The notes beneath the pieces were generated by a model. It was not told where the DNA came from. It saw only the letters and a list, made by a program, of their open reading frames with translations, and did no database searches. From Cristatella mucedo (taxonomy: Eukaryota > Bryozoa > Phylactolaemata > Cristatellidae), in NCBI GenBank assembly GCA_009760855.2, contig WPIO01000017.1, positions 3,152,501 to 3,216,500 on the forward strand: a stretch of DNA of 64,000 nt, written 5' to 3'. The translations under genes and the position numbers were made by a program. Below are positions 7,560 to 64,000 of the stretch, piece after piece; positions within the stretch are counted from its first letter, which is position 1; each line of letters opens with the position of its first letter.

Positions 7560-7578
7560 CCCTCTCCCCCTCTCTCTC

Positions 7579-7636
<58 letters not shown>
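7560..7636. repeat. (CT)n microsatellite
   Basis: CT dinucleotide tract; CCCC interruptions at the left end become a pure tract at the right. Confidence 0.95.
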
Positions 7637-10865: not shown

Positions 10866-12680
10866 ATGCAGCTGCCGTTTTCACGATAAACTTCAGAAAA
10901 ATTGATTTGATTTCTAATTCTACAGAATACAGGTGCTATGGTTGACCCGCCCAAGTTTCACTTAATATCGCTGCTGCCAGTTCTCTTACCGTGGCTTAAA
11001 TGGTCCGCGATAGCCAGCCAGCACTTTTTGCACTTTCGAATGGCGATACACCTACCATTTCTACAAAATGCTTCGCGAAACTACGGTTTTGATTCCGAAT
11101 AATAGAGAACAGTATGCCAAGTTTGCCCGCCAGATTCGCTCTCCTGCCATGGCCTCAGATGGCCCAGTCCAAATGGCAGCACAGAACATTCGAGCTTCAA
11201 TATAAAGCTGCCATTTTCACAAAAAGCTTTGCGCAGCTGTGAGTTTGATTTTGTACTTTGATCAAAAAGTGCTGCGCGTTAAGCCATCTGACTGCATGCG
11301 ATTTCGCTGGCGCGTTCTCACGCTATGACCTTCAGCCGCCTTACCGAGATAGCCGCACTGAGTAATTAAAATGCGATACAGCTGCCATTTCTGCAAAAAG
11401 CTTGACGAAACTGCGGTTATAAGTTCAAATGGTAGAGAATTGTGTTCCGGGCATTCACCCATCAAATTGCATGGGATTTCGCTTTCGCGTACTCATGCTA
11501 TGGCTTCGGATGGCCCGGGCCTGCTAATGAAACTGCGATACAGCTGCCATTTCCACAACAACCGTTGCAAAACTGCAGTGCTTGTTTGACATAATAAGAA
11601 ATAGCGTTCCGGGTTTACTCGCAAAATTTCATGCAATCGCACATGTCCGTTCTCACCCAATGGCCTCCGATGGCCCGGGCTGCCATAAATATACGAACAG
11701 CGATGCATCTGCCATTTTCATGTTAGGAGACGTGCAACTGAGGTTTTGATTCCAAGTTATAGATAACATCGTTCTGGGTTTACTAAGAAATTTCGTGCAG
11801 TTGCACATGCACATTGCCATGCTACCTACGTCCTACAATGGCCCATTCCAGCCAGCCTACCAACATAATCGAACTGCGATACGGCTGCAATATTCACTAT
11901 AAGCGTTGCGAAACGGCGCTCTTGATTGCATTCTATAGAAAACAGCGCAATAGATTTACATTCAAAATTTCGTGCGACTTCGCATGAGAGTTTTTATGCA
12001 ATGGTCATCAATGGCCCGGGTCAGCAAGCCTTCCTACGTATTCGAACTGCGATACAGCTGCCATTTTCAATATAAATGCTTACAGCAATCGCACTTTTTA
12101 TTCGACATTTTGAAAACAGTGTTCTGGGTTCATCAACAAAATTTTATTGCATAGCACTTTGGCGTTGTCAGGCTATGGCCCGGGCCAGCCAGCCTCGCTG
12201 CATAATCGAACTGCGACACAGCTGCCATTTATCCTATAAGCGTTGCTCCTCAACTGCGTTTTGATTCCACAGTATACAAACCAAAGTTCCGGGCTTACAA
12301 ACAACATGTCGTGCAATTGCGCATGCGCGTTCTCGCGAACTCTCGTCTCCAATAACCTCAACGGCCGCGGTCCAATTTCGAACTGCGAGAAACAGCTGCT
12401 ATTGCCATAACGAGCGTAGTGTAACTGCGGTTGAGCTACTAAAGCGTCGGAAGCAGTGTTACGGCTGTAGAAATTAAACGTAATACGATCTTCCATGCCT
12501 GCTCAATTAGAATGACCTCCGATTGCCCAAAGCGTTCAGAAGTTTTGAACTACGGTATAGCCGCTACTTCTATGAGTCGGGCAACAACGGTTTTGATATC
12601 ACATTACAGAAAGGCCCGTTCCGGGTTTAACCACTAATTATCATGCCATCGGGCTTGGCCATTTGATTTACATCATTTCG
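10866..12680. repeat. Diverged satellite array, period about 170 bp, about 10 units
   Basis: The landmark AGCTGCCATTTTCA (with variants) recurs near 10870, 11051, 11208, 11381, 11542, 11708, 11883, 12057, 12221, 12393 and 12560. The spacing is 157-180 bp. Each unit also carries a TGCGGTTTTGATTCC block, a TTCCGGGTTTAC block, a TTTCGTGCAATTGCGCATG-like block and ATGGCCCGGGCC in the same order. Units have drifted considerably. No ORF spans the array. Confidence 0.85.
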
Positions 12681-13510: not shown

Positions 13511-13916
13511 CATGTCGCACACTCCCGCATATCGCGGGGCAGGCTTGTGATCGCCAGACACAAGTATCTAGCTGTGCAATTAAGTATATTTAGCGTCGAA
13601 TTCATTGAAAACGGGCGCCATTTCAATCTGAAAGTCGAGCGTACGTATGGATGGCAGATTAAAGGTTAACACTGCGGAAATCGGCAGCACATTCACTTTC
13701 TCCAAAGACATTTCGTCAGTAGCTCCATTACTATCAAACGACGAAATCGCCGATTCAGCAGGTGTGTAACCGCGTAGAGGTTCGTCCCCCGGTTCTCTAC
13801 CGGTGGACTGTGTGATGCAGTGCTGCAGTGCGGTTAAAACACAGGCGGCCACAACTGGGTGCCGAAAGCAACAGTTTATTGTAGGCCTGTTAGTAGTGGT
13901 TACGTGCCGGCGCAAG

Positions 13917-14072
13917 CGCTTTACGCGGCGCGTACCGGACCGACGGAGTTAACTGCGCGAACTCCCGAAGCCCGAGTATAACCAACTACCCTGTGCGTTT
14001 ACGCGGCGCGTACCGGACCGACGGAGTTAACTTCGCGAACTCCCGAAGCCCGCGTATAATACACTAACCTAT
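13917..14072. repeat. Tandem duplication, period 78 bp
   Basis: TTACGCGGCGCGTACCGG begins at 13921 and again at 13999. The following CCGACGGAGTTAACT-CGCGAACT and CCGAAGCCCG-GTATAA blocks are nearly identical in both copies, so the duplication is fairly young. Confidence 0.9.
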
Positions 14073-23214: not shown

Positions 23215-23847
23215 TCACTTGCCAGGGCGGTGCAGCGGGCCCCAAAGCAGCCTCGAGGGATGAGATTCGTCATTATAAGTGAAGAAGCACTGTCCGGCGT
23301 GAACGAACTCGTCCCGGCGAATGCTTTCTTTACCTTGACCGAACACGTCGCGATAGCTGCTCAGGGCAGCGTCTGAGTCCAGGCCGAGGCCTTCGCAGAA
23401 GGCCACCCACTCTTTCGGCGTCACGAACCCGTCGGCGTTGCTGTCGACGACGTCGAACAGGAGCTTTAGCGGCTCCTCGAGGCGGCTCTTGGCGTCTGGC
23501 AGGCGCAGCAGGCAGCGCACGAGATCCACGAACTCGGCTGGCGACACCTTGTGGTCGTACCCCTTGTCCTCGCCGCAGCACCAGAAGTCCTCCCAGAGCT
23601 GGATGAGGAGACGCTGGTTGGCGAACTCCCTCTGCTCGCTCAGCCTGGAGACGCGCGTCAGCCTCTTCACGAGCGCCTTCACGTCGTCGCGCGACACGTA
23701 GCCGTCCTTGTCCAGGTCCAGGCGGTGGAAGTGCGTGAGCATCTTCCTTTCCCAGAACTCGCTCGAGTGCCCGGCGGGCGACCCTTGCATGCCGCCGACC
23801 GCGCTGGCCACGATCTGCCTGAAGCCGGCCGCAATACTCGACAGCAT
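23215..23847 (-). CDS. Sarcoplasmic calcium-binding protein (EF-hand), intronless
   Basis: Predicted 210-residue cytosolic Ca2+ buffer of the invertebrate sarcoplasmic calcium-binding protein (SCP) family. EF1 is residues 44-55 (D-x-D-x-D-G-Y-V-S, but Asp at position 12). EF2 is 94-105 and degenerate (D-x-G-x-D-H, Glu at 12). EF3 is 135-146 and canonical (D-S-N-A-D-G-F-V-T-P-K-E). EF4 (about 167-181) has lost its Asp ligands and one loop residue, so it is probably silent. The SEFWERKM start of the core, the FFT segment and the terminal LWGPL are SCP signatures; annelid SCP has the same layout in about 174 residues. Residues 1-29 are an extra Ala/Ser-rich N-terminus. I chose the ATG at 23847 because an in-frame TGA lies at 23998-24000 with no ATG between. 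GC-rich codons throughout. Lack of introns may mean a retrocopy. Confidence 0.88.
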   Translation of the reverse strand: MLSSIAAGFRQIVASAVGGMQGSPAGHSSEFWERKMLTHFHRLDLDKDGYVSRDDVKALVKRLTRVSRLSEQREFANQRLLIQLWEDFWCCGEDKGYDHKVSPAEFVDLVRCLLRLPDAKSRLEEPLKLLFDVVDSNADGFVTPKEWVAFCEGLGLDSDAALSSYRDVFGQGKESIRRDEFVHAGQCFFTYNDESHPSRLLWGPLHRPGK

Positions 23848-24256
23848 CGTCGTCGTCGTCGTTGAGGCTCGCACCGCAGCAGCAGCAGCAGCGGTGGCAG
23901 AGGTGGCAGCAGCAGCCGCTGCAGGATGCTCAAGAAGCCGCCGCGGAGTCCGCCGCCCGATTTCGCGTACGACAACTGAGCCGACGAAGCGGCGGCGTCA
24001 CTTTTCCCTCGTCGGCCTTGCCGATTGGTGCGGGGGGCTCCTCACTGTTTCTTCCAATTAATGACATTGGCTAGCTGAAAGCATCTCTGAAAGGGAGGCT
24101 CTTCTTAATTGGCTGAGCGGCGACGGCTAGGCGGGCGCCGATAACGCTGGCCGACGCCGGTTTGGGGGTGGGAGCCGTAAGGGGCGGTCACGTGGACCAC
24201 CTATTAGTCTCGTCAGCGGCCAGGGTCAGACGAGCGGTGAGGAGCACCACTTCCGC

Positions 24257-27514: not shown

Positions 27515-27655
27515 AAAAAAAATATAATTCATTTATATAACGTTCCAAGAGAACTTAATCTCTATTTAGGCGCTTTACATATGTGAGGGGCTTGAGCCCA
27601 CGACCTCAGCCAGACCTTGGTCGGGGCGAGCACCTTAACCGCTTGACCGACGTCG
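27515..27655 (-). mobile_element. SINE family 2 copy
   Basis: Minus strand: GTCAAGCGGTTAAGGTGCTC (box A region), CCGACCAAGGTCTGGCTGAG, GTGGGCTCAAGCCCC (box B region). Then GCGCCTAAATAGAGATTAAG and TTCTCTTGGAACGTTATATA (hairpin tail). Full-length layout. Confidence 0.85.
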
Positions 27656-27684
27656 AATCCTTTGGTTCCTAGTCGACATGAATT

Positions 27685-28090
27685 GTGACGTTGAGGTCAG
27701 CCTCTGGGCCGTTCGGCGCGCGTCGAAGTCCTCTCGAACGGGGCTTCCCATAGCGGGTGTTGGGCATTTAAGGGCGTGCGTCGGCGGTCGTGTTAGGCAT
27801 TTAAGGGCGTGCGTCGGCGGTCCTCTGAGCGACCGTAGAGTCGAGTTGTTTGGGAATGCAACCTAAATCGGATGGCAAACTCCACCTAAAGCTAAATACG
27901 GGCACAAGACCGATGGCGAACAAGTACCGTGAGGGAAAGTCGAAAAGAACTTTGAAAGAGAGTCCAATAGTGCGTGAAACCGCTTAGATGCATACGGGTG
28001 GAACCGAAAAGTCGTCCTAGTTGATTCAGCCGTCGGAGCGGCCGCTCCGCGTCGCACCTGATCTTCGGACCGGCCGGCGCTCCAGCTCGG
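27685..28090 (+). rRNA. 28S rRNA fragment (D1-D2 region), dispersed pseudogene
   Basis: From about 27850 the sequence follows the conserved core of large-subunit rRNA: TTGTTTGGGAATGCAACCTA, AACTCCACCTAAAGCTAAAT, ACAAGTACCGTGAGGGAAAG and AAAAGAACTTTGAAAGAGAG, then GCGTGAAACCGCTTAGATGC. It then enters a D2-like GC-rich segment ending CTGATCTTCGGACCGGCCGG. Substitutions at normally invariant sites (CACCTAAAGC for CATCTAAGGC, CGATGGCGAACAAG for CGATAGTCAACAAG) and no flanking rDNA mark it as a pseudogene fragment. The upstream D1 part has a 33-bp tandem duplication (GGCATTTAAGGGCGTGCGTC at 27763 and 27796). Confidence 0.88.
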
Positions 28091-28094
28091 TGAT

Positions 28095-28730
28095 AAAACA
28101 AGGACTACTGCGGACGGCTTCAATGGTTTCGCCGGTCGATTCGTCCGCCATGCCTTTCAAAGCAACAAAGAAGGCACGCCCTTTACGGAGCCTGTGATTG
28201 GTAGTTTGCTAAGTCTTGCCTGAGCCTTGGCCTAGAAGTAGAACCGCATTTGTATGTTGAATCTAAGTAAAGTCCTCCCTAAGTCTTAGGCCGTATTCCA
28301 GTATTGGTGACGTATACACCAACGACTCAATTAGGTAGGAGGCGGGTTGGAAGCACGACTCACCGTGTAAACCCGGCTAAAAACAATTTAGTTTTGGTGG
28401 GCATTCGAAAAGCCCATTGCAGCTCCTTTGCTGTAGGAGCTGCAATTGATCTTCCGGTTGATTAATGAACTCAAAGTAAATGGAGCAAAGTGAATTTCCC
28501 TTTCTGAGTCTCAAGGTCTGCCATGGCCGTATTCTTCTACACAAGCTCTCTCCGCTTGTGTTCTAGCGAGCCTGCCGCTCGCTTTCGGGAGCAAATTCTT
28601 GGCGATGCTCCTTAGCTCGCCAGCATGCCTGTGAGGCCTGGGAGCCGAGAAACCTTCGGACCGACCGCGCTCGGGCGGGCGCAGCCTTTGCTCGAGCCGG
28701 GCAGACCGAGGGTGCACGTGCCAACCGGGC
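28095..28730. other. Unassigned GC-moderate sequence
   Basis: May extend the divergent 28S D2 segment for a short distance; beyond that nothing is recognised. A small palindromic pair CAGCTCCTTTGCTGTAGGAG lies near 28420. Confidence 0.25.
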
Positions 28731-29269: not shown

Positions 29270-29374
<105 letters not shown>

Positions 29375-31489: not shown

Positions 31490-32760
31490 GTGATGAGTGC
31501 GTGTTTTTATTTTTCATGCTTAACAAGCCCGGATTAGATATAGAGGTCCTTGCAATCTATTGCCCAGTTTCCTTTCTTCCTATCTTTTCAAAGATTCCTG
31601 AAAAATTGTTGCTAAACAGCTGGTTGAACATAATGAAAAGAATGAAATGTCTGAAACGTTTCAATCAGGATTCAAGAGGCAGCACTCCACTAAAACTACT
31701 CTCCTCAGTGTTAACGATAACATTCTACGTGATAACGATGGCGGGAATTTCACTGCCCTAGCTCTGCAAGATCTGTCAGCTGCCTTCGACACCATCGATC
31801 ACGATGTTCTGCTTGAACGATTGAGAACAACGATCGGTCTGGCAGACGAGGCACTGGCGGGGTTTAAATCGTACTTGTCATGTCGTGTTCAATCCCTGTC
31901 GTGTGGGGGTCAGGTCTCAGACACGAGACGTGTCGTCTGCGGAGTCCCTCAAAGGTCTGTACTCAGTCCGTGCCTATTCTCCGTGTATACTCAACCTCTG
32001 GGAAAAGTGATTAAGGCCCACGGAATAGGATATCACTTTTATGCTGACGATACTCAGCTGTATTTGTCATTCAAACCGTCGGAATCGGCTGCAGCAACTG
32101 TGAAACAGAATGCCTGTATTGCCGACATTCGATCCTGGATTTCGGAAAACTTCTTGAAATTAAATGACGATTAAACCGAACTGCTGCTCTAGGACACCCT
32201 AAGCGTGTGACTGGATTAAAAGGCTTTTCTCTTCTAATAGGCGACTCTGTCGTGCGACCATCACCACGTGCTCAAAATTTAGGTCTCGTTTAGCCCGCCA
32301 TGGCTTGGCTCCTTCGTACCTAGTTGAACTGCTACATCAGATTCAGCCTGTTCGCGCCCTCTGGTCCTGTGTGGACAGTAAATTAGCTGTCTCATTCCTC
32401 CGCTTAAAGACCGTTGGCGACAGAAGCTTTAGCTCTGCAGGTCCTAGACTGTGGAACTCGCTTCCACAATTCTTACTCAACGACAACTACTCTCCTGCTG
32501 CCGACAATGGCTCTTTCTTTTCAGCGGTCCTGAGCTGCTACTTCCACGTTACTCACTACCTCAACTGCTCTCCTGACTCTGCTATGCTTGCCACTTTCTC
32601 TTTGTTACGTTAAATGAAGTCTGTTGGCTGCCGAATGCGTACCAAAAGCCACTTAGGCTGTGAGTGCGCCATACAAACTCTCATGCGTAGCAACCACATA
32701 GTCTTTATGAGTTTGTGGAGTTACAGACGGAGATACATTACATTACATTATATTTATCAT
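31490..32760 (+). mobile_element. LINE A, RT domain through 3' end, internally deleted
   Basis: L2/CR1-type RT. The start block (KPGLDIEVLAIYCPVSFLPI) is at 31525-31585. The palm continues at 31647-32174 with LQDLSAAFDTIDHDVL, VPQRSVLSPCLFSVYT and HFYADDTQLYLSF (catalytic YADD intact). After LKLNDD come a TAA, a frameshift, and the HPKRVTGLKGFSLL and RAQNLG blocks. Sequence then jumps near 32285 straight to ARHGLAPSYLVELL, so several hundred bases of the region after the palm are deleted. C-terminal frame 32305-32613, then 3' UTR ending GGAGATACATTACATTACAT. Best preserved RT in the window, but not functional. Confidence 0.9.
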
Positions 32761-36144: not shown

Positions 36145-36712
36145 TAATGTAATCTAATGTAATGTAATTTAATGTAATGTATCTCCGTCTGTAACTCCAC
36201 AAAGTCATAAAGACCATGTGGGTGTTATGCAGGAGAGTTTTGTGTAGCGCACTTACAGCCTAAGCGGCTTTCGGTACGCATTCGGTAGCCGACAGACTTC
36301 GTCTCACGCAACAAAGAGAAAGTGGGAAGCATAGCAGAGTCAGGAGAGCAGTTGAGGTAGTGAGTAGCATGGAAGTAGCAGCTCAGGACTGCTGAAAAGG
36401 ATGAGCCATAGTCGGCAGCAGGAGAGCCGCTGTCGTTTCGTAAGAATTGTGGAAGCGAGCTCTGCAGTCTAGGACCTGCAGAGCTAAAGCTTCTGTCACC
36501 ATCTGTCTTTAAGCGGAGGAATGGGACAGCTAATTTACTGTCCACACAGGACCTCAGGGCACGAACAGGCTGAAACTGATGTAGCAGTTCAGCTAGGTAC
36601 GAAGGAGCCAAGCCGTGGCGGGCCTTGTGGGTCAGCGTAAGAACTTTGCTCTGTATCCTTTGCTCAACCGGAAACCATCCTAGCTCTTTCAGCAAAGGTG
36701 AGTGGCGTGTGG
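36145..36712 (-). mobile_element. LINE A, 5'-truncated, nested in LINE B
   Basis: A 156-codon frame (36695-36225) gives the C-terminal block KELGWFPVEQRIQSKVLTLT, KARHGLAPSYLAELLHQFQP, LRLKTDGDRSFSSAGPRL and SLPQFLRND. The 3' UTR follows, ending GGAGATACATTACATTAAAT and further TACAT-type units. It interrupts LINE B within one coding block, so it inserted later. Confidence 0.88.
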
Positions 36713-49279: not shown

Positions 49280-49535
<256 letters not shown>

Positions 49536-49799
49536 GAGAGCGAGACTAGTGGTGCCGTGAAAGGAAAGGGAGTCTAGCCGTGCCCTTGAAGGTCAAGGGA
49601 ACTAAGCTATATGGTTTTGGCCTGGTTATGTCAGAATAAGCCTTCCCACGGGAATAGAGTTTGACGTCGATTGATCTGTCAATTGTTAAAGAGCACTGTA
49701 GCAGCTTCTGCACTAACATCCCTAGGCTACAAAGGCAGTGCTCATAACGTTGCTAGTCCTACTCACGACAAATCACGACTGTTGGAAGACGTCACTCTT

Positions 49800-51671: not shown

Positions 51672-52350
51672 TCTACAGTATCTCCGACTGTTACTCCACG
51701 AAGTCATAAAGACCATGTGGGTGTTACGCAGGAGAGTTTTGTTTAGCGCACTCGCTGCCTAAGCAGCTTTCGGTACGCATTCGGCAGACAACAGACTTCG
51801 TCTCACGCAACAAAGAGAAAGTGGGAAGCATAGCAGAGTCAGGAGAGTAGATGAGGTAGTGAGTAGCATAGAAGTAGCAGCTCAGGACCGCTGAAAAAGA
51901 TGAGCCATAGTCGGCAGCAGGAGAGCTGCTGTCGTTGCGTAAGAATTGTGGAAGCGAGCTCCACAGTCTAGGACCTGCAGAGCTAAAGCTTCTGTTGCCA
52001 ACAGTCTTTAAGCGGAGGAATGTAGCAGCTAATTGATTGTCAACAAAGAACCTGAAGGCGTGAAGAGGCTAAAAATGGTGCAGCAGTTCAGCTAAGTACG
52101 AAGGAGCCAAGCCGTGGCGGGCTTTGTGAGTCAGCGTAAGAACTTTGCTCTGTATCCGTTGCTAAACCGGCATCCATCGTAGCTCTTTTAGCAAAGGACA
52201 CACGTGCTTAAACCGCTGGGACTTGAAGACAAGCCTTGCAGCCGTATTCATAGTCATAAGCAGTGGCCTAGTTGCTATTGTTGGTAGTCCAGCCAAAAGG
52301 GAATTACAATAATCAAGCCGAGCCAGAACTCGCTTATCGTGCTTACTTCC
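51672..52350 (-). mobile_element. LINE A, C-terminal half
   Basis: Minus strand: LARLDYCNSLLAGLPTIATR (about 52335-52275), then PLLKELRWMPV, KARHGLAPSYLAELL, FLRLKTVGNRSFSSAGPRLW and SLPQFLRNDSSSPAADYGSS. The 3' UTR ends at about 51675 without a full TACAT tail. Frame breaks occur between blocks. Confidence 0.85.
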
Positions 52351-56255: not shown

Positions 56256-57740
56256 AATGTAGGAGCAGGACAGTGGGAGTGGTTGAGGAGGTGACTGATC
56301 GTCAACATAAGCATTTTTTGATTGTGCATTCAACAATGTTTTTATAGAAGCTAGATTTGGCCTTTGCTAGGATCGATTGGTGCGACCTATAGCAGTCTTC
56401 ATATGCCTGTCGATGGACAGCCAGTCCTGATCTTCTGTATGCTTTTTCAAGCATGGGCTAGTAGACCTGGCTAGTTTAATGTCTGTGGTAAACCAAAGGC
56501 CGTCTAGGCGAGGCGCACAGTGCGCTTAGTCAGAGGTACAAACTCGTCGAGCGTGTCTGCTGGTGTCGTGTTGTAGCTATCTACCAATGATGACAGATCG
56601 GACGGAGGACTGGGAAGCAGAGGCGAAACAGATATTCTTGCACGGACAGCATCGATGTCAAGGGTCTTGAAGTTTCGTGATTCACATGTTACTTTAGAGG
56701 AGGAGGTGGGCACACACTGTAGATTGAATGAGATCTGCATGTGGTCAGATAAGCAGGATTTGGTAATAATTGGTGATGACAAAGTGCAGTTGTATGAGAA
56801 AATCTGGTCGAGTGTGTGACCCTTGATGTGAGTAGGGCCATGCACATGTGCCACAACAGTCAATGAGTCAGTCAATGCACGAAATTCAGTGCAGAAGGTG
56901 TCAGATAGGTTATCAAAGTGAACGTTGAAATCGCCCATAACGAGGAAGGATCGATATCTTGCACACAGAATCGAAACGACATCGGAGAAATCTGAGATAA
57001 AGGAGGATTTGGTACCTGGTGGGCGATAGACTACTGCCACCATCGGTAGCTTGTTTTCGGGTGAGACCACAAGACGATTGATTCAAAAGACTGCTTCGAG
57101 GGTACTGCAAACGGCTTGAAGTTGAGTTTCGAGCGCACGATAACAGCAACTCCACCTCCAGTTTTGATTGATCTAGGGTGTAAAATAATGAGAAACCGGT
57201 TGGGGTCACGTCTTTAATTGTCGGGCAGTTTACCAATTTTAGCCAATTTTCAGTTAGGGCGAGCAGGTCGAGACCATTTTCAGAAATAAGGACGCTTATT
57301 ACCAGAGGTTTATTGCACATTAAGCGAGGATTACAAAGGCATGCGTTAAGTCTGGCCGGTGGAGTTACAACAGGCCTGATGACCACTAAGTTAGAGAGAT
57401 TCACAGTGACGCATGCGGGGGAGCGTACTGAGTGGTTCGAGACAATTGTAGGAATACCAAACGAGCGGGTACTCAGCTCGAAGTTCCCGCCCAACGAGCG
57501 GCGTCTGAGCTGGCGGTTCCGGCCACCACGGCGGCTCCGGGTGCTTTTCTTTTGTTGATGCATAGTTCACGAATCTTAGCAGCAGCATTAATATCTAGGA
57601 ATGCATTTGTTCTACGATGACGAAGCGATAGCAGCTGCTGACGATCATAACTAACAAGCAGGTTACTGGCCGCCGGCGTAGCTAAGGCAGCTGCCGGCGT
57701 GGGAGACCAAGCAGCCCGAAGCGATAAGCGTTTAGATATC
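56256..57740 (-). mobile_element. LINE ORF2, endonuclease domain and linker
   Basis: Minus strand: a basic N-terminal segment (LLSLRHRRTNAFLDINAAAK, about 57640-57580), the APE-type endonuclease start (MCNKPLVISVLISENGLDLL, then LALTENWL; Glu catalytic position present, about 57340-57240). A frameshift near 57100 leads to frame 57070-56504: PMVAVVYRPPG, FLVMGDFNVHF (catalytic DFN), TLDQIF and CLSDHMQISF (catalytic SDH). A linker follows (DGLWFTTDIKLARSTSPCLK, about 56510-56450). RT is missing: the copy stops at the tail of the plus-strand LINE B. Probably a LINE A/B relative; the family cannot be assigned. Confidence 0.88.
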
Positions 57741-57744
57741 CATT

Positions 57745-58209
57745 GGCACGTAATTTTCTAGGCATTACGGTCAAATAAAAATCAGAATAACTTTAAACAG
57801 GTCTTATCTGTATCGTTTCCATATACGATGTTCGCAAGAACTTCGGTTTTCCGAAGAATTCTGCAACGAACACGAAAGCACATGTGAGGCCTTTATGTCG
57901 GGAGGCGAGAATTGAGGTTCCTTCAGCGCCCCTTAAGCTTCGGCAACTCAAATGGCTCTTGGTGGGGTCGGTGGCGGGGTGTGCCCTCGTTAGAACTTTT
58001 GATCTAGAACCTTCTGTTCCATACGCAACAGGAATGAGGTGGTTACCGGTTTCAGATTGCTGAGGCGTAACGGATGGGAGATGAGGGAAAGAGGGGCGGG
58101 GCAATTCCTGCCTACTAAGCGACCCTAGCAATCCGGAAGTGACCCTGGCCTAGTTGTTGACTTCAGCGCTTCTGCTTTCGCTGACTCGAGGCTGACGTTT
58201 GTGTTCCTC
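57745..58209. promoter_or_regulatory. Region upstream of UPB1, presumed promoter and 5' UTR
   Basis: Between the LINE and the UPB1 ATG. A minus-strand frame (57793-58131) shows no known domain. No TATA box or initiator stands out; the assignment rests on position only. Confidence 0.3.
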
Positions 58210-58307
58210 ATGGCCGCTGAGCTCGAAAACATTGACGACATTCTGGATAAGCTGTCATTTGAAGATCAAAATAAAGTTCGGTCAATTTTATATGGACAAA
58301 GCTGGAG
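58210..58307 (+). CDS. UPB1: UPB1 (beta-ureidopropionase), exon 1
   Basis: Start ATG with G at +4, then 32 codons plus two bases before a GT donor (AG/GTGATG). Residues MAAELENIDDILDKLSF and QNKVRSILYGQ match the N-terminal helix of animal beta-ureidopropionase, where human has [20 protein letters not shown], then LYGK. The enzyme (EC 3.5.1.6, nitrilase superfamily) hydrolyses N-carbamoyl-beta-alanine to beta-alanine, CO2 and ammonia, the last step of uracil and thymine breakdown in the cytosol. This helix belongs to the N-terminal extension used in oligomer assembly. The phase (2) fits exon 2 exactly. No upstream in-frame stop was found back to about 58150, but the start agrees with the family. 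Confidence 0.85.
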
Positions 58308-58661
58308 GTGATGAGACGCTGTCGCTGGCGTTGCTGGTGTTGGTGTCATTGCTGTGAGCTACTATCAGGAGCTGCAGTCTGCACGCTTGTTGTCTATCTG
58401 TTACCGATCCTCCCATGTGAGGCAATGATCCTCATCATTAAGACAAATCTAGAGCTCTTAGAACACAGGTTTTCATCACGTACATATGTTTTACAGCGTA
58501 TTTTGTGTTTCTGTATAGGCAGACGATCAGTCCTTACTTGGTTCCTTCCAGCCTGTATAGAAAGCAGGTACCGGTACTCGTTACGTTCCACGAAATCTTA
58601 AGCGACATTCTCATTCCGTTTACCTCAGTCTCGGCCTCCAGTGAGTTTGTGATGCTTGTAG

Positions 58662-58833
58662 TCCCCTGAACTTTCCACCCGAGGCCCTGAAACAGGCGTC
58701 CGACCAGAACTTCGAGCTCAAGGGCTTCGCACTCGACGCCAAGAAGGAAGAGCTTCGAAGGCCTCGAATCGTCAGAGTAGGCGCCATCCAGAACGACTTG
58801 GTGCTACCCACCGACGCACCGCTTCAAGATCAG
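58662..58833 (+). CDS. UPB1: UPB1 (beta-ureidopropionase), exon 2
   Basis: Acceptor GTAG/T at 58660-58661 and donor CAG/GTACGT at 58833-58834. Joined to exon 1 it stays in frame for 57 further codons and ends in phase 0. FPPEALKQASDQNFELKGF and KKEELRRPRIVRVGAIQN follow the human [20 protein letters not shown] and EEQLRRPRIVRVGLVQN with no gaps. RPRIVRVG is the first beta strand of the nitrilase fold. The catalytic Glu, Lys and Cys are encoded by later exons, which I do not find before the window ends; the intron after exon 2 is either longer than 5 kb or this is a gene fragment. The sequence shows no frame damage. Confidence 0.93.
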
Positions 58834-58999
58834 GTACGTCGCCGTTGATTTTACCACTCAGTAATGTCACTGGGCTGCGAATTCTGTTTGTTAAACTGCC
58901 TACCTGTCTAAGCCTCGACCTGTCGGCTCCATTAGTTTTTGAGCTTTCAAGACCCGGATGACATTCTTTACTGCGGCTCACTATACTGAGCCGTAAGTT

Positions 59000-59113
59000 A
59001 TGCGGTTATCGTTTCATGTTCTGTGTTTGAACTGGAGCTGTAGCTACATCCAACGTGGGGAAGGTAGCAAGCTAGTGATCAGAGTACATGCAAAGCCAAC
59101 AATTAAGGAACTG
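59000..59113 (+). CDS. Candidate exon, unidentified
   Basis: From an ATG at 59000 (an in-frame TAA precedes it) the frame stays open to a consensus donor CTG/GTAAGT at 59113-59114. It encodes IQRGEGSKLVIRVHAKPTI near its end. An alternative start is the acceptor CTGTAG at about 59043. It ends in phase 0 and joins the next candidate in frame. I do not recognise the product. It lies 166 bp after UPB1 exon 2 but is not UPB1-like. Confidence 0.28.
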
Positions 59114-59214
59114 GTAAGTTCACTTGTTAAATAGAACAGTTGTATTCACCGATTATCGATTGAGAGGTGATGGCAGAACCAGGTAAGTGTCTGCTTTTCA
59201 TGCTTTTTCATTCT

Positions 59215-59326
59215 GAGATCATTGGTTTGAATCGTGCGGTGGGCGATCTTTTATTGCATCTGCAAGCAGTGGTGATAGCCGTAAAGGCTCCTCTGTTGCT
59301 ATGCAAAAGAGGCTGTTAAATCAGCT
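59215..59326 (+). mobile_element. SINE family 1 copy, head-truncated
   Basis: Box B TTGGTTTGAATCGTG, GCATCTGCAAGCAGTGGTGA, GCCGTAAAGGCTCCTCTGTT and the end GAGGCTGTTAAATCAGCTAG. It lies inside the putative 59114-59364 intron. Confidence 0.82.
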
Positions 59327-59364
59327 AGCAGGTTTTTTTTCTATGTTCGACCTTGTTGTAACAG

Positions 59365-59507
59365 ATCATAGCTGCTTGCTGTATTGCTGATCCAAGTATA
59401 CCAAAGCTTATATCCAACGATGTAGTCTATACCATCTCGTATGGAACTGCAGTAGCTACTGTGCAATCAACGACACCTGGCACGAGCTTCTTGCTATTAC
59501 CTTCAAG
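59365..59507 (+). CDS. Candidate exon, unidentified
   Basis: A T-rich tract and acceptor TTGTAACAG end at 59364; a donor AAG/GTAAGG lies at 59507-59508. In the phase required by the previous candidate all 47 codons are open (IIAACCIADPSIPKLISNDV, then VYTISYGTAVATVQ). It does not match UPB1. A T-rich acceptor near 59618 would add only three codons before a stop. Chance cannot be excluded. Confidence 0.28.
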
Positions 59508-59519
59508 GTAAGGTGGTTA

Positions 59520-60395
59520 TAGGCATTACATAACCTGGCAGAGATGCAGTACTGGTACCAGCTGCGAAGCATCACCCGGGTCAACCGAATAAGGATCAGC
59601 TCCTTTTGTTTATTAGATGCTGGCAATGATATAGATTGTATGTAAAAGTCCTAGATGATGGCATTTGGCTCTACTGTTGTCCACTCCGTTGGGGCCTCGC
59701 ATGGTTGGACCATTTCTCTTTTAAATGTATTTGAAATAGCCTATTGGTTACTACTGTGCACTAGGCCTGAGTGACAACTCATGCCTCTGTACAAATTTAA
59801 TGGCTCTAATGCAACCCGAAGCTGTGCTCGTTATTGGCTGCAGGCTTAGCTGCTGAAGCTGATTCAATACCGAAAACAAAACGATGGTGGTCACGGTCTT
59901 TATCAGAGCTTTGATAGCACCTTGGCAGTTTTCGAAGAATCGTGGGCCATTCATTTGCCTGCTTCGTGTGCAGACTAATGTGCCTGGCTCGTAGGCAAGT
60001 CGGCATCCACTTTGCTCAAGTATTGCATGTCACCTCATGGGGACTGATATGTCTATGCAAAGGAAGTAGCCGAGTAAATGTTTTGAATCATCGTTCATCT
60101 GGTCTGCTACACGTGCCGATCATGCCTCATATCGGCATTGCCTTCGAATTACCTGCCGGTGTTTTGATGGTAGTGCAAGCACCTGAAAGGGCATAACCAG
60201 TAATTTTTCAATGGAACTAAACGTTGACCAGGCCGGAACCAACCAGCCATAGCCGATAGAATGCCCCTTACAAGGTGTCTTTTAGGAGTGGCCCCTTCCT
60301 GAAGCTTGCCCATCCTATTGCGACTGCAGAGCATCAGGTTGACAGATGCAGCCAAGCAGCAGTACGTACTCCTAATAAATCACCAAGTCCTTCTC
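59520..60395. other. Unassigned sequence
   Basis: Frames up to 84 codons (59942-60196) without a known domain; no repeat recognised. Confidence 0.3.
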
Positions 60396-60399
60396 TAGT

Positions 60400-61268
60400 G
60401 CCTCTCATGTCGCCTGAGCATCACTGGCAACACACTGCAATGGTGTAGGTCCTATCTCAATGGGAGAGTCCAGAGTATTGATGTCAATGAGCAACAATTA
60501 TTCTAGGAGCCACTGTAGTATGGGGCACCAAGGTGCTCTGTGCTTGGTCTGCTTTTTTCACCATGTGCACTCTCCTTCTTGCCGGTATAATCGCCAAGCA
60601 CAGTGCAGGCTTTCACTTCTATTCCAATGACACACTGCAGCGGTACCTATGCTTCGATTCCGCCCTGCAGACTTCCAGCACGTTTAACTCCCTCCTCAGC
60701 TTCCTTGCTGTGTGCATTGCTGACATCCGTACTTGGATGGCAGCAAAATGTATCTCAAATTGAACTACGACGAAACCAAATTGCCTATTATGTGAAAGCC
60801 TGGCGTGACTCTGAAATTCGAAATATTAGCACTCAAAAACCGCTCTTCCAGCATATCTCTTGTAAAATATTCACGAAATCTAGGTAGGTGTCCCGTTCTG
60901 AAATGACCTTTCACTAGACAATCACATCAGCTCCGAAGTCAATTCTGCCTCCTTCTTGCTATGTAACATCACGTAAATTCGGGCTTGCTCAGAGAGTGAT
61001 ACCACATGCAGGTTGGTCCATGCATTTTTCACATCCCATCTCGACTTCTGCCACTTACTGCTTGCAGGTCTACCGATCTATACAATCAGGCAGATTACAG
61101 TCGCAGCCAAACTCTGCTGCTAGGCTCTGTAGCATGTAGTCGTGAGCATCACCACCAACTAACCGTGTGGTCATTCTTCCTTTTCAGCCTATATGCAGTT
61201 CATAGAGAGCAATTAAGTTCTCTGGGGATGCTATGTAGTCGTATTATTATTGTTATTATTATTGTGAG
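60400..61268 (+). mobile_element. LINE B, RT palm to tail, decayed
   Basis: Blocks in order: RLSITGNTLQWCRSYLNGRV (about 60410-60470), GAPRCSVLGLLFSPCALSF, GFHFYSNDTLQRYLCFDSAL (YADD decayed to YSND, about 60607-60665), CIADIRTWMAAKCIS, then SRSEMTFH/LDNHISSEVNSASF and TSHLDFCHLLLAGL (about 60890-61075). The tail hairpin (61205-61245, decayed) and (ATT)n follow. Most of the C-terminal region is deleted before the tail. Confidence 0.75.
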
Positions 61269-61299
61269 CAGCCCTCTTTTTCTCTCATTCATCTTTTAG

Positions 61300-61350
61300 T
61301 TAACCACTGGGCCAAACCTTGCTGCCATGCCGAAACTCGAGGCCCACAGC
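61300..61350 (-). mobile_element. SINE family 2 head fragment
   Basis: The complement reads GGTTTGGCCCAGTGGTTAAC (box A) and GTGGGCCTCGAGTTTCG (box B region). It lacks the body and tail. Confidence 0.6.
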
Positions 61351-61354
61351 TGTC

Positions 61355-62005
61355 ACGTACCCATAATGGACTGGACCACAAAAGGAGGGGCATGAATCGG
61401 CCGGATGAACGAGCGGCTCTCAGCAGAGCCATTCAAGTCAACTGCTGTTGGCAAATGCCACAGAGCAAGCAGGCCTGTGATTAAGTCAATAATGGAGTCT
61501 GCAAACTTTCGAAAAGAAAAGGCAGCTGTAGACAAGAAATGCTGTAAGAGCAAAGACTGCATTGCCGACCGTCGAGATGGCTTCAGCAGCGACCACGAAA
61601 ACACTCCAACACAAATTTGTAACAACCGGCATTGGATAGAGGGCTCACCTGGCTATGGCTAAACCAGCCAAGGCAGTGCGCTTTGGCAAACGTGCAGCGC
61701 CCATAAGTACACAACAGCGTGAACGTCTGGAGTAGTGATGCAAAAAATCTGGAACCGGTCCACTTGAGAGCCATCGTACGGCTTCGATACCACCGGAAGT
61801 AGTGGGAAATGGCAGCTGCTGGGCATTCGAGCAAAGGCCTATCAATGCGTTGGTGCACCATCGGCCGGTTGGCCGATTGAAGGCAGATGGTAATGGCAAG
61901 CTGCTAGCTTTTTGAAGCTTCTACCGGCACACACACTAGTGTCGCTCTCTCATGAATTCGCAGATAACCAAAAGATGTTTAGGATCCGGGCTTCAAGGTC
62001 AGTCT
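61355..62005. other. Unassigned sequence with a two-strand open block
   Basis: 61405-61662 (plus, 85 codons) and 61353-61899 (minus, about 90 codons) are open but show no known domain. Confidence 0.3.
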
Positions 62006-62009
62006 CCCA

Positions 62010-62150
62010 ACTAATTAAGGATGGCTCTTCACAACCCAGGTAGTGTGCTTGAGTCCTTGGGTAGGCAGTTCTTTATTGCTCACTGCAAGCCGGAATGATA
62101 GCAGCTACAGCTCTTCTGCCGATACTTAGATGAGGTTGCTAGTTCAGCTG
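62010..62150 (+). mobile_element. SINE family 1 copy, decayed
   Basis: GGCTCTTCACAACCCAGGTA, weak box B CTTGAGTCCTTGG, GCTCACTGCAAGCCGGAATG, AGCTCTTCTGCCGATACTTA and an end GAGGTTGCTAGTTCAGCT. Confidence 0.7.
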
Positions 62151-62157
62151 ATCTTAT

Positions 62158-62255
62158 AATGATAATAATAATAATTGTTATAATAATACATTTGTATAAC
62201 ACCATCAGATAACTCAATCTCTTTCAAGGCACTTTGCAGATGCTGTAAAGTAAAC
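62158..62255 (-). mobile_element. LINE B 3' tail fragment
   Basis: (AATAAT)n, then TTTGTATAACACCATCAGAT and AACTCAATCTCTTTCAAGGC: the tail in minus orientation. It lies directly after the SINE 1 end. Confidence 0.75.
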
Positions 62256-62259
62256 TTCA

Positions 62260-63515
62260 CCTGACTAAAAAAAAACGCATTCCCATTATTTACTTGTGCC
62301 CTAGGATGAAAGTAGCATAATCGTAAGTCATTTGGGTCGGGAGATTTGCAAGTTAAAACTACTACATAATATCTGTACCCTCCTTATTCTACTGTTGATG
62401 AGGTTTTTCAAGTGATGTTCGAGCACCGTGTTCGCATAGAAGATGACTCTGAAGCATCCTGGTCTCCCAAACTCGGTATGGTTATCAGCCGTCAGGCTAC
62501 CTGCCTGTAGGAACCTTTACCGAGTGCCAAGGTCGCTCAAGGCATGCCAAGGTCGGTCAAGGCGTTGACTAACGAATTCTGCAATCCACTTGTGGGTTCA
62601 TGCAATCGATTTAAGGTCTTCTAAGAGACTGTTGCATTAGTGGATGTGCATCTCACTTGACTCTTTCAGTGTCGCCCTGATCGACAGCATCCTGGCAAAA
62701 CAGTTGTGAATGCCGGCTTTACTCTCGTTACTGAAGTGATTAAAACATATACCTGTGCTTTTCTATCGTAGGCTACTTTGGTAGCGGCAGCTATTCGAAA
62801 TATGAAGATCTGCAGCTGTTGCCATTGTAGACCTAATTTTTTCTGCTGTCAATAAATTCTTTCATCACATTATTGACATAGCTATGGCTTTCTTTTTCAA
62901 TCAATGTATGTTTTATACAGTGACAAACTCGAAGTGATTAGGCATGATATTGCTTATTGAGTAATAATTCTCGATAATTCTATTAAAAGCATTTACCTGC
63001 AAGGTAATAGTTCAATCTTAGCAGGGCCAAATTACCGACTTAGCGTTTACTTCAACCTTAGCTGGTAATGATACCAGTCAGCCTGAAAATTTGGTCCCTT
63101 GGAGCTTCCCCCTATGATTATTTTGTGGGTATTGAATTTCATGTAATACCCACTCGGAAAGCAGCATCGCACGGTGCATTCATTCGCCAACTGAAAGGTT
63201 GGTTTTAAGTGAGTAGCAACAAGGTGCATGCCGATTGGTCACCACTAAAATAATCCGATAGGTAGATCTTTCCTGCCATCATGGTTAACCGAGGCTGCCA
63301 GGCGCCCCGCCACAGAGAAGGCTGCTCAACGGCTGTGGTGTGCTTTAGTTAAAGCGGAAGTGAAAGAGCTGGCCGGGTTGGGCATGTTAAAAGGAAGGCC
63401 AAAGGTAGTAGCAAAGAGCAGGAACTCCTTATACAAGTCATGCACCATTCGTAGGTGTACTGCTGCTTGAAGTTACCCTCTATTTTTATAGTTATCCCTG
63501 CGTGGGCAAGTCGCC
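62260..63515. other. Sequence with weak candidate exons
   Basis: 62370-62457 stays open in plus frame (YPPYSTVDEVFQVMFEHRVR, then IEDDSEASWSPKLG) up to a possible donor CTCG/GTATGG, but no acceptor AG sits at its left edge. 62671-62772 follows a good acceptor (GACTCTTTCAG) and reads RPDRQHPGKTVVNAGFTLVT before a stop. Neither product is recognised. The rest is AT-rich and without repeats apart from GCATGCCAAGGTCGGTCAAG-type duplication near 62530-62570. Confidence 0.22.
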
Positions 63516-63519
63516 GATT

Positions 63520-63800
63520 ATGACTTCAATGATAATAATGTAAATACATTTGTATAGCGCCCTCATAGAACTGAATCTCTTTCTAGGAACTTTCCATATG
63601 CTGTAAAGAAAGCATCATCGAATGATTAGTGGTAGTATGCACAATTTCATCAAGCATGACATGGTTAGTGGTGACATGCACAGTGTCAGCATGTAAAACA
63701 TGGTTGGTGGTATCATGCACAGTCTCACATTGCAGAAGCACACAAAGACGAATCACAAGATCCTGCTAAATGCTGTGATAAAAAGATGGGAATTAAGCTT
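63520..63800 (-). mobile_element. LINE B 3' UTR and tail
   Basis: (AAT)n, TATAGCGCCCTCATAGAACT, TCTTTCTAGGAACTTTCC and a UTR with two tandem copies of an ACATGGTTAGTGGTGACATG-type unit (63658 and about 63697). It may continue toward the coding part to the right, which is not seen before the window end. Confidence 0.75.
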
Positions 63801-63804
63801 CTTT

Positions 63805-64000
63805 TGAACTCGACTTGTCTCCAAGTAACTGGTGGTAACCGGTGCTGTCCGGTTGGCCCTAGGAGCATGCACTGTGTGTCAGTATCTTTTTAAGACGTTT
63901 GTTGCACGTGGTGCTCAGTGCACTGGTTTGGAAGGGCAAGTGAACAGCGTTGATTTGGTGGCAGCAGTTTTATGAGCAGATGGTTGTTTTAACTGTAGCA
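63805..64000. other. Unassigned end of window
   Basis: No recognisable feature; possibly decayed LINE B C-terminal sequence in minus orientation. Confidence 0.25.

Follow-up and report, generated by a model that had tools for sequence, protein, structure and literature searches.

Two short coding exons near the right end of the window, the whole stretch of 64,000 nucleotides analyzed here (C88:3152501-3216500, plus strand), almost certainly form the 5' end of a complete animal UPB1 orthologue encoding beta-ureidopropionase (EC 3.5.1.6), which is apparently present as a single copy. We read them as part of a complete gene because further exons follow downstream on the same contig, the reading frame of the resulting model is intact, its catalytic residues are kept and two of its exon junctions are conserved.

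Two UPB1 exons at the end of the window

Coding exon 1 (58210..58307, plus strand) comprises 98 bp, encodes residues 1-32 and ends two bases into codon 33, while coding exon 2 (58662..58833, plus strand) comprises 172 bp, supplies the third base of that codon and continues to residue 90. Between them lies a predicted intron of 354 bp (58308..58661, plus strand) in phase 2 with GT-AG borders (GTGATG...TTGTAG). Together the two exons amount to 270 bases, a number divisible by 3, and their in-frame joining gives 90 residues starting with the ATG at 58210. Exon 2 ends in phase 0 at the donor CAG/GTACGT, and the remainder of the window (58834..64000, plus strand) is taken up by the first 5.2 kb of intron 2, the full predicted length of which is 9,343 bp (C88:3211334-3220676). 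An in-frame stop codon is located at 58126-58128 upstream of exon 1. As no in-frame ATG is present between this stop and 58210, the latter is the first usable in-frame start. The putative 5' UTR (58129..58209, plus strand) adjoins this start codon, the UTR as well as the choice of the start being predicted from the upstream frame. The sequence-only reading of this DNA had already given the coordinates, the lengths of 98 and 172 bp, the GT-AG borders and the matching phase of the two exons, all of which are correct. It had also considered the exons too short for ORF scanning, and indeed their own reading frames stay open for just 60 aa in the case of exon 1 and 67 aa in that of exon 2, which is why they were missed by the ORF scan.

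When the 90 residues were compared with the PDB by phmmer, only three distinct sequences were found at E<=0.001, all of them beta-ureidopropionases, including the human (8pt4/6ftq, E=1.2e-17) and the fly enzyme (2vhh, E=3.3e-15). The similarity to animal beta-ureidopropionase proposed earlier is thus confirmed, with 40 of the 90 aligned residues identical to the human protein. The alignment is not free of gaps as had been claimed, since it contains one 1-residue gap relative to human UPB1 and, in the N-terminal region, two (phmmer) to four (spliced alignment) small gaps relative to the Drosophila beta-alanine synthase CG3027 (2vhh, 2vhi).

The gene continues beyond the window

The sequence-only reading had suggested a search for further exons to the right. 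To this end, the next 40 kb of contig C88 were searched by tblastn with human and fly UPB1 (E<=0.01); the genome as a whole comprises 572 Mb in 688 contigs. Of the 11 exons that lie outside the window, 9 were detected, namely exons 3-8 and 11-13, in order and on the strand of exons 1 and 2. For exon 13 a match was obtained with human UPB1 alone (E=0.002); exons 11 and 12 appeared as a single tblastn piece reading through intron 11. This intron of 90 bp is open in frame and, if left unspliced, would add 30 residues that are present in neither the human nor the fly enzyme. Exons 9 and 10 (43 and 27 bp) come from spliced alignment alone. The exon expected to contain ICFQEAW was found with the related motif IICMQETW as exon 3 (C88:3220677-3220764, plus strand), which begins 4,177 bases past the window end, and the expected exon with the catalytic cysteine was found with the motif INICYGRHHP (C88:3232097-3232211, plus strand).

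The gene model was established by spliced protein-to-DNA alignment of C88:3210501-3246500 with BLOSUM62 scoring, obligatory GT-AG borders and the human and fly proteins as guides. Both guides led to the same 13 exons, the sole difference being a single codon where exon 1 begins. The predicted splicing distributes these exons over 33 kb (C88:3210710-3243847), with lengths of 98, 172, 88, 95, 85, 132, 115, 82, 43, 27, 41, 87 and 81 bp for exons 1-13 (the last including the stop codon). Among them, the 27-bp microexon 10 was placed at C88:3239161-3239187 by the spliced alignment. As the aligner required GT-AG, the presence of these borders at 12 of 12 introns provides no independent support. After addition of the ATG and the stop codon, the coding sequence comprises 1,146 bases from ATG to TAG and encodes 381 residues without an internal stop. 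Presumably, the gene is transcribed and spliced as modelled here from the DNA sequence.

The predicted protein

The 381-residue model is identical to human UPB1 at 254 of 381 positions and to the fly enzyme at 252 of 381 positions. It is two residues shorter than the human protein in the N-terminal region and one residue shorter at the C-terminus. In a comparison with the PDB, the top three of 30 distinct matches were the human (two entries) and the fly beta-ureidopropionases, with E=2.6e-180 for human 8pt4 and E=3.6e-174 for fly 2vhh. Residues E117, K194, E205 and C231 of the model correspond to E119, K196, E207 and C233 of human UPB1 (8pt4, 6ftq), the catalytic residues of this enzyme. The CN_hydrolase domain (Pfam PF00795) was detected at residues 90-349 with 193.5 bits. 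It is preceded by an N-terminal extension of about 90 residues (1-90), which aligns with the N-terminal ends of the human and fly proteins. Thus, the part of the gene inside the window encodes the N-terminal extension only, and the catalytic Pfam domain lies outside it except for its first residue.

The product belongs to the nitrilase (carbon-nitrogen hydrolase) superfamily and, judging from its human and fly homologues, would hydrolyse N-carbamoyl-beta-alanine (3-ureidopropionate) to beta-alanine. This reaction is the last step of the reductive breakdown of the pyrimidines uracil and thymine. In the mechanism of the nitrilase superfamily a conserved cysteine serves as nucleophile, a role that Cys231 would play in the protein described here. 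The conversion of 3-ureidopropionate to beta-alanine is given as the beta-ureidopropionase reaction in PMC7464968.

Exon junctions compared with human UPB1

In the numbering of the human coding sequence, the model's 12 junctions lie after c.104, 276, 364, 459, 544, 676, 791, 873, 916, 943, 984 and 1071. The exon 1/2 junction (c.104/105) and the exon 9/10 junction (c.916/917) match human junctions to the base. The human UPB1 variants c.364+6T>G and c.873+1G>A, if right, would add two matching junctions; c.873+1G>A would also make c.943/944 an intron that is absent from human. A literature search retrieved no paper combining UPB1 with c.364+6T>G or c.873+1G>A, and a search for the gene structure of beta-alanine synthase returned generic intron papers, none with the term 'beta-alanine synthase'.

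The matches at c.104/105 and c.916/917 follow from published human variants, namely c.105-2A>G, which affects the acceptor of intron 1 (PMC12110867), and the splice acceptor variant c.917-1G>A (PMC8011092). According to PMC7464968, human UPB1 has 10 exons, and a table therein assigns c.91 to exon 1, c.209 and c.254 to exon 2, c.703 and c.706 to exon 6, c.792-857 to exon 7, c.977 to exon 9 and c.1076 to exon 10. These exon numbers are compatible with our junction map and leave the other junctions unfixed. Compared with the 10 exons and 9 introns of the human gene, the model contains 13 coding exons and 12 introns. By this count it has three introns beyond those of human, in addition to the 27-bp microexon; tentatively, the extra introns may have arisen as lineage-specific gains, or they may be ancestral and have been lost in vertebrates.

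Copy number and alternative explanations

A search of the genome with the 90 residues scored three candidates and yielded two matches, both of which are the window's own exons, so that this search gave no sign of exons 1-2 elsewhere. As the copy searches were run exon by exon, their counts are lower bounds. PF00795 was matched at eight places in the genome, on contigs C3, C550, C442, C111 and C88, the one on C88 being exon 6 of the gene described here. The other places were set aside as UPB1 copies, as tblastn with human and fly UPB1 (E<=0.01) matched the window and C88 only, about 3 kb having been examined at each place.

Exons as short as these might resemble a known protein by chance. Exon 1 alone shows weak similarity that is not significant (best match fly, E=0.21), and its donor GTGATG is weak as well; it is accepted because the shared junction, the ATG and the remainder of the gene carry it. 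For the pair of exons, chance was assessed by tblastn of the human N-terminus within the window and its shuffles. The real window gave a best score of 64.3 bits, at exon 2, against 19.6 bits when 58101-59000 was masked; 60 first-order Markov shuffles averaged 19.2 bits and did not exceed 23.9 bits. A coincidental similarity of two open stretches is thus practically inconceivable, and it is refuted by the fact that the protein carries on beyond the window. That the exons are instead the 5' end of a UPB1 pseudogene or gene fragment lacking a working remainder would fit the window taken by itself, as it holds just 90 of the 381 residues and no credible match to a further UPB1 exon, including exon 3, was found within 58834-64000. 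However, the other 11 exons of the model follow downstream in order, 9 of them detected by tblastn as well, and the frame is open from ATG to TAG with intact catalytic residues. The introns are kept, and therefore the gene is no processed retrocopy; furthermore, exons 1-2 are the sole copy found in the genome search. A non-functional remnant is thus very improbable.

We consider it just as improbable that the gene encodes a paralogue within the nitrilase superfamily acting on another substrate, for instance an enzyme similar to N-carbamoylputrescine amidase. The observation in its favor is that, among seven NCBIfam matches, the best was to the N-carbamoylputrescine amidase model agmatine_aguB; all seven remained far under their cut-offs in this prokaryotic library, the best match reaching 139.5 bits against a curated cut-off of 410.25 bits. 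The protein carries the N-terminal extension of the UPB1 type, and its full-length identity to human and fly beta-ureidopropionase is 66-67%, the value between those two enzymes being 64.1% (246 of 384 residues). N-carbamoylputrescine amidohydrolase is only the fourth PDB match of the full model, with E=7.8e-27 as compared to the far lower values of the human and fly beta-ureidopropionases, again arguing for a UPB1 orthologue.

Other features of the window and the genome

All 83 window ORFs of at least 100 aa were scanned with Pfam, as were 150 frames from a filtered set of 178 that measure 68-99 aa. Only an EF-hand protein and a pair of retroelement fragments emerged from the ORFs, and no match was obtained for the 150 shorter frames. 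Nothing in these scans speaks against the earlier description of UPB1 as the window's only clearly conserved metabolic gene, but it is unproven, as short exons escape them. Among PDB entries, the EF-hand ORF (23215-23994, minus strand, 259 aa) comes closest to 1q80/2scp, a sarcoplasmic calcium-binding protein (E=9.3e-24); as 1q80 is an annelid protein, this tentatively suggests a lophotrochozoan. The retroelement fragments are an RVT_1 reverse transcriptase piece (31602-32171, plus strand, E=1.2e-18) and an Exo_endo_phos_2 endonuclease piece (56504-57079, minus strand, E=3.2e-6), the latter lying upstream of UPB1 and ending 1.1 kb from its first exon. Among weak matches, near-identical peptides ending QRIQSKVLTLTHKARHGLAPSYLAE were seen at 36588-36692 and 52087-52206 (both minus strand). 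This ending resembles that of a non-LTR reverse transcriptase; a Pfam scan of the open frames around the two places gave no match. An isolated, degenerate piece from the 5' part of eukaryotic 28S rRNA was matched at 27638-28165 (plus strand; RF02543, model positions 24-664 of 3401, 128.3 bits) and is perhaps an rRNA pseudogene or retroposed. Long arrays rich in GA/CT dinucleotides occupy 49284-49545, 29272-29372, 2059-2147 and 7562-7635. No tRNA genes were detected in the window with bacterial settings.

Elsewhere in the genome, contig C3 (1,507,939 bases) contains a 508-aa frame with a CN_hydrolase match beside an RNase D-like frame of 281 aa, and a 1105-aa frame with a Fer4_20 match. As its frames are long, uninterrupted and bacterial-looking, this contig may stem from a contaminant or a bacterial symbiont. 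When the genome contigs were scanned with the 281-aa protein, no relative was found. The Fer4_20 domain occurs in DPYD; matches to it were seen at two places on C676 (884663-886246) and one on C3, and no DPYD assignment was made.

Contig C688 (21,008 bases, 44% G+C) is mitochondrial, with genes on both strands and a COX1 gene containing 11 internal TGA codons. Judged by eye, its gene order, like the EF-hand gene of the window, may point to a lophotrochozoan. A block of at least 1.2 kb is repeated there at a spacing of 2,115 bases, as seen for the frames 11632-11919 and 13747-14034 and likewise for predicted tRNAs. Further COX1 matches at C166:4375626-4376390, C83:2826-3735, C549:2641741-2642010 and C299:634220-634540, all with internal TGA and some with TAA or TAG, are perhaps nuclear copies of mitochondrial DNA.

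Conclusions

Overall, the assignment of the two exons to UPB1 is routine but correct, and the gene is an ordinary orthologue that raises no new question about the enzyme. Its presence supports an animal origin of the window. Conserved peptides combined with splice phase can thus reveal exons that an ORF scan misses. The bryozoan gene adds one more invertebrate-like UPB1, in which two junctions lie at the positions of human junctions, in keeping with old introns.
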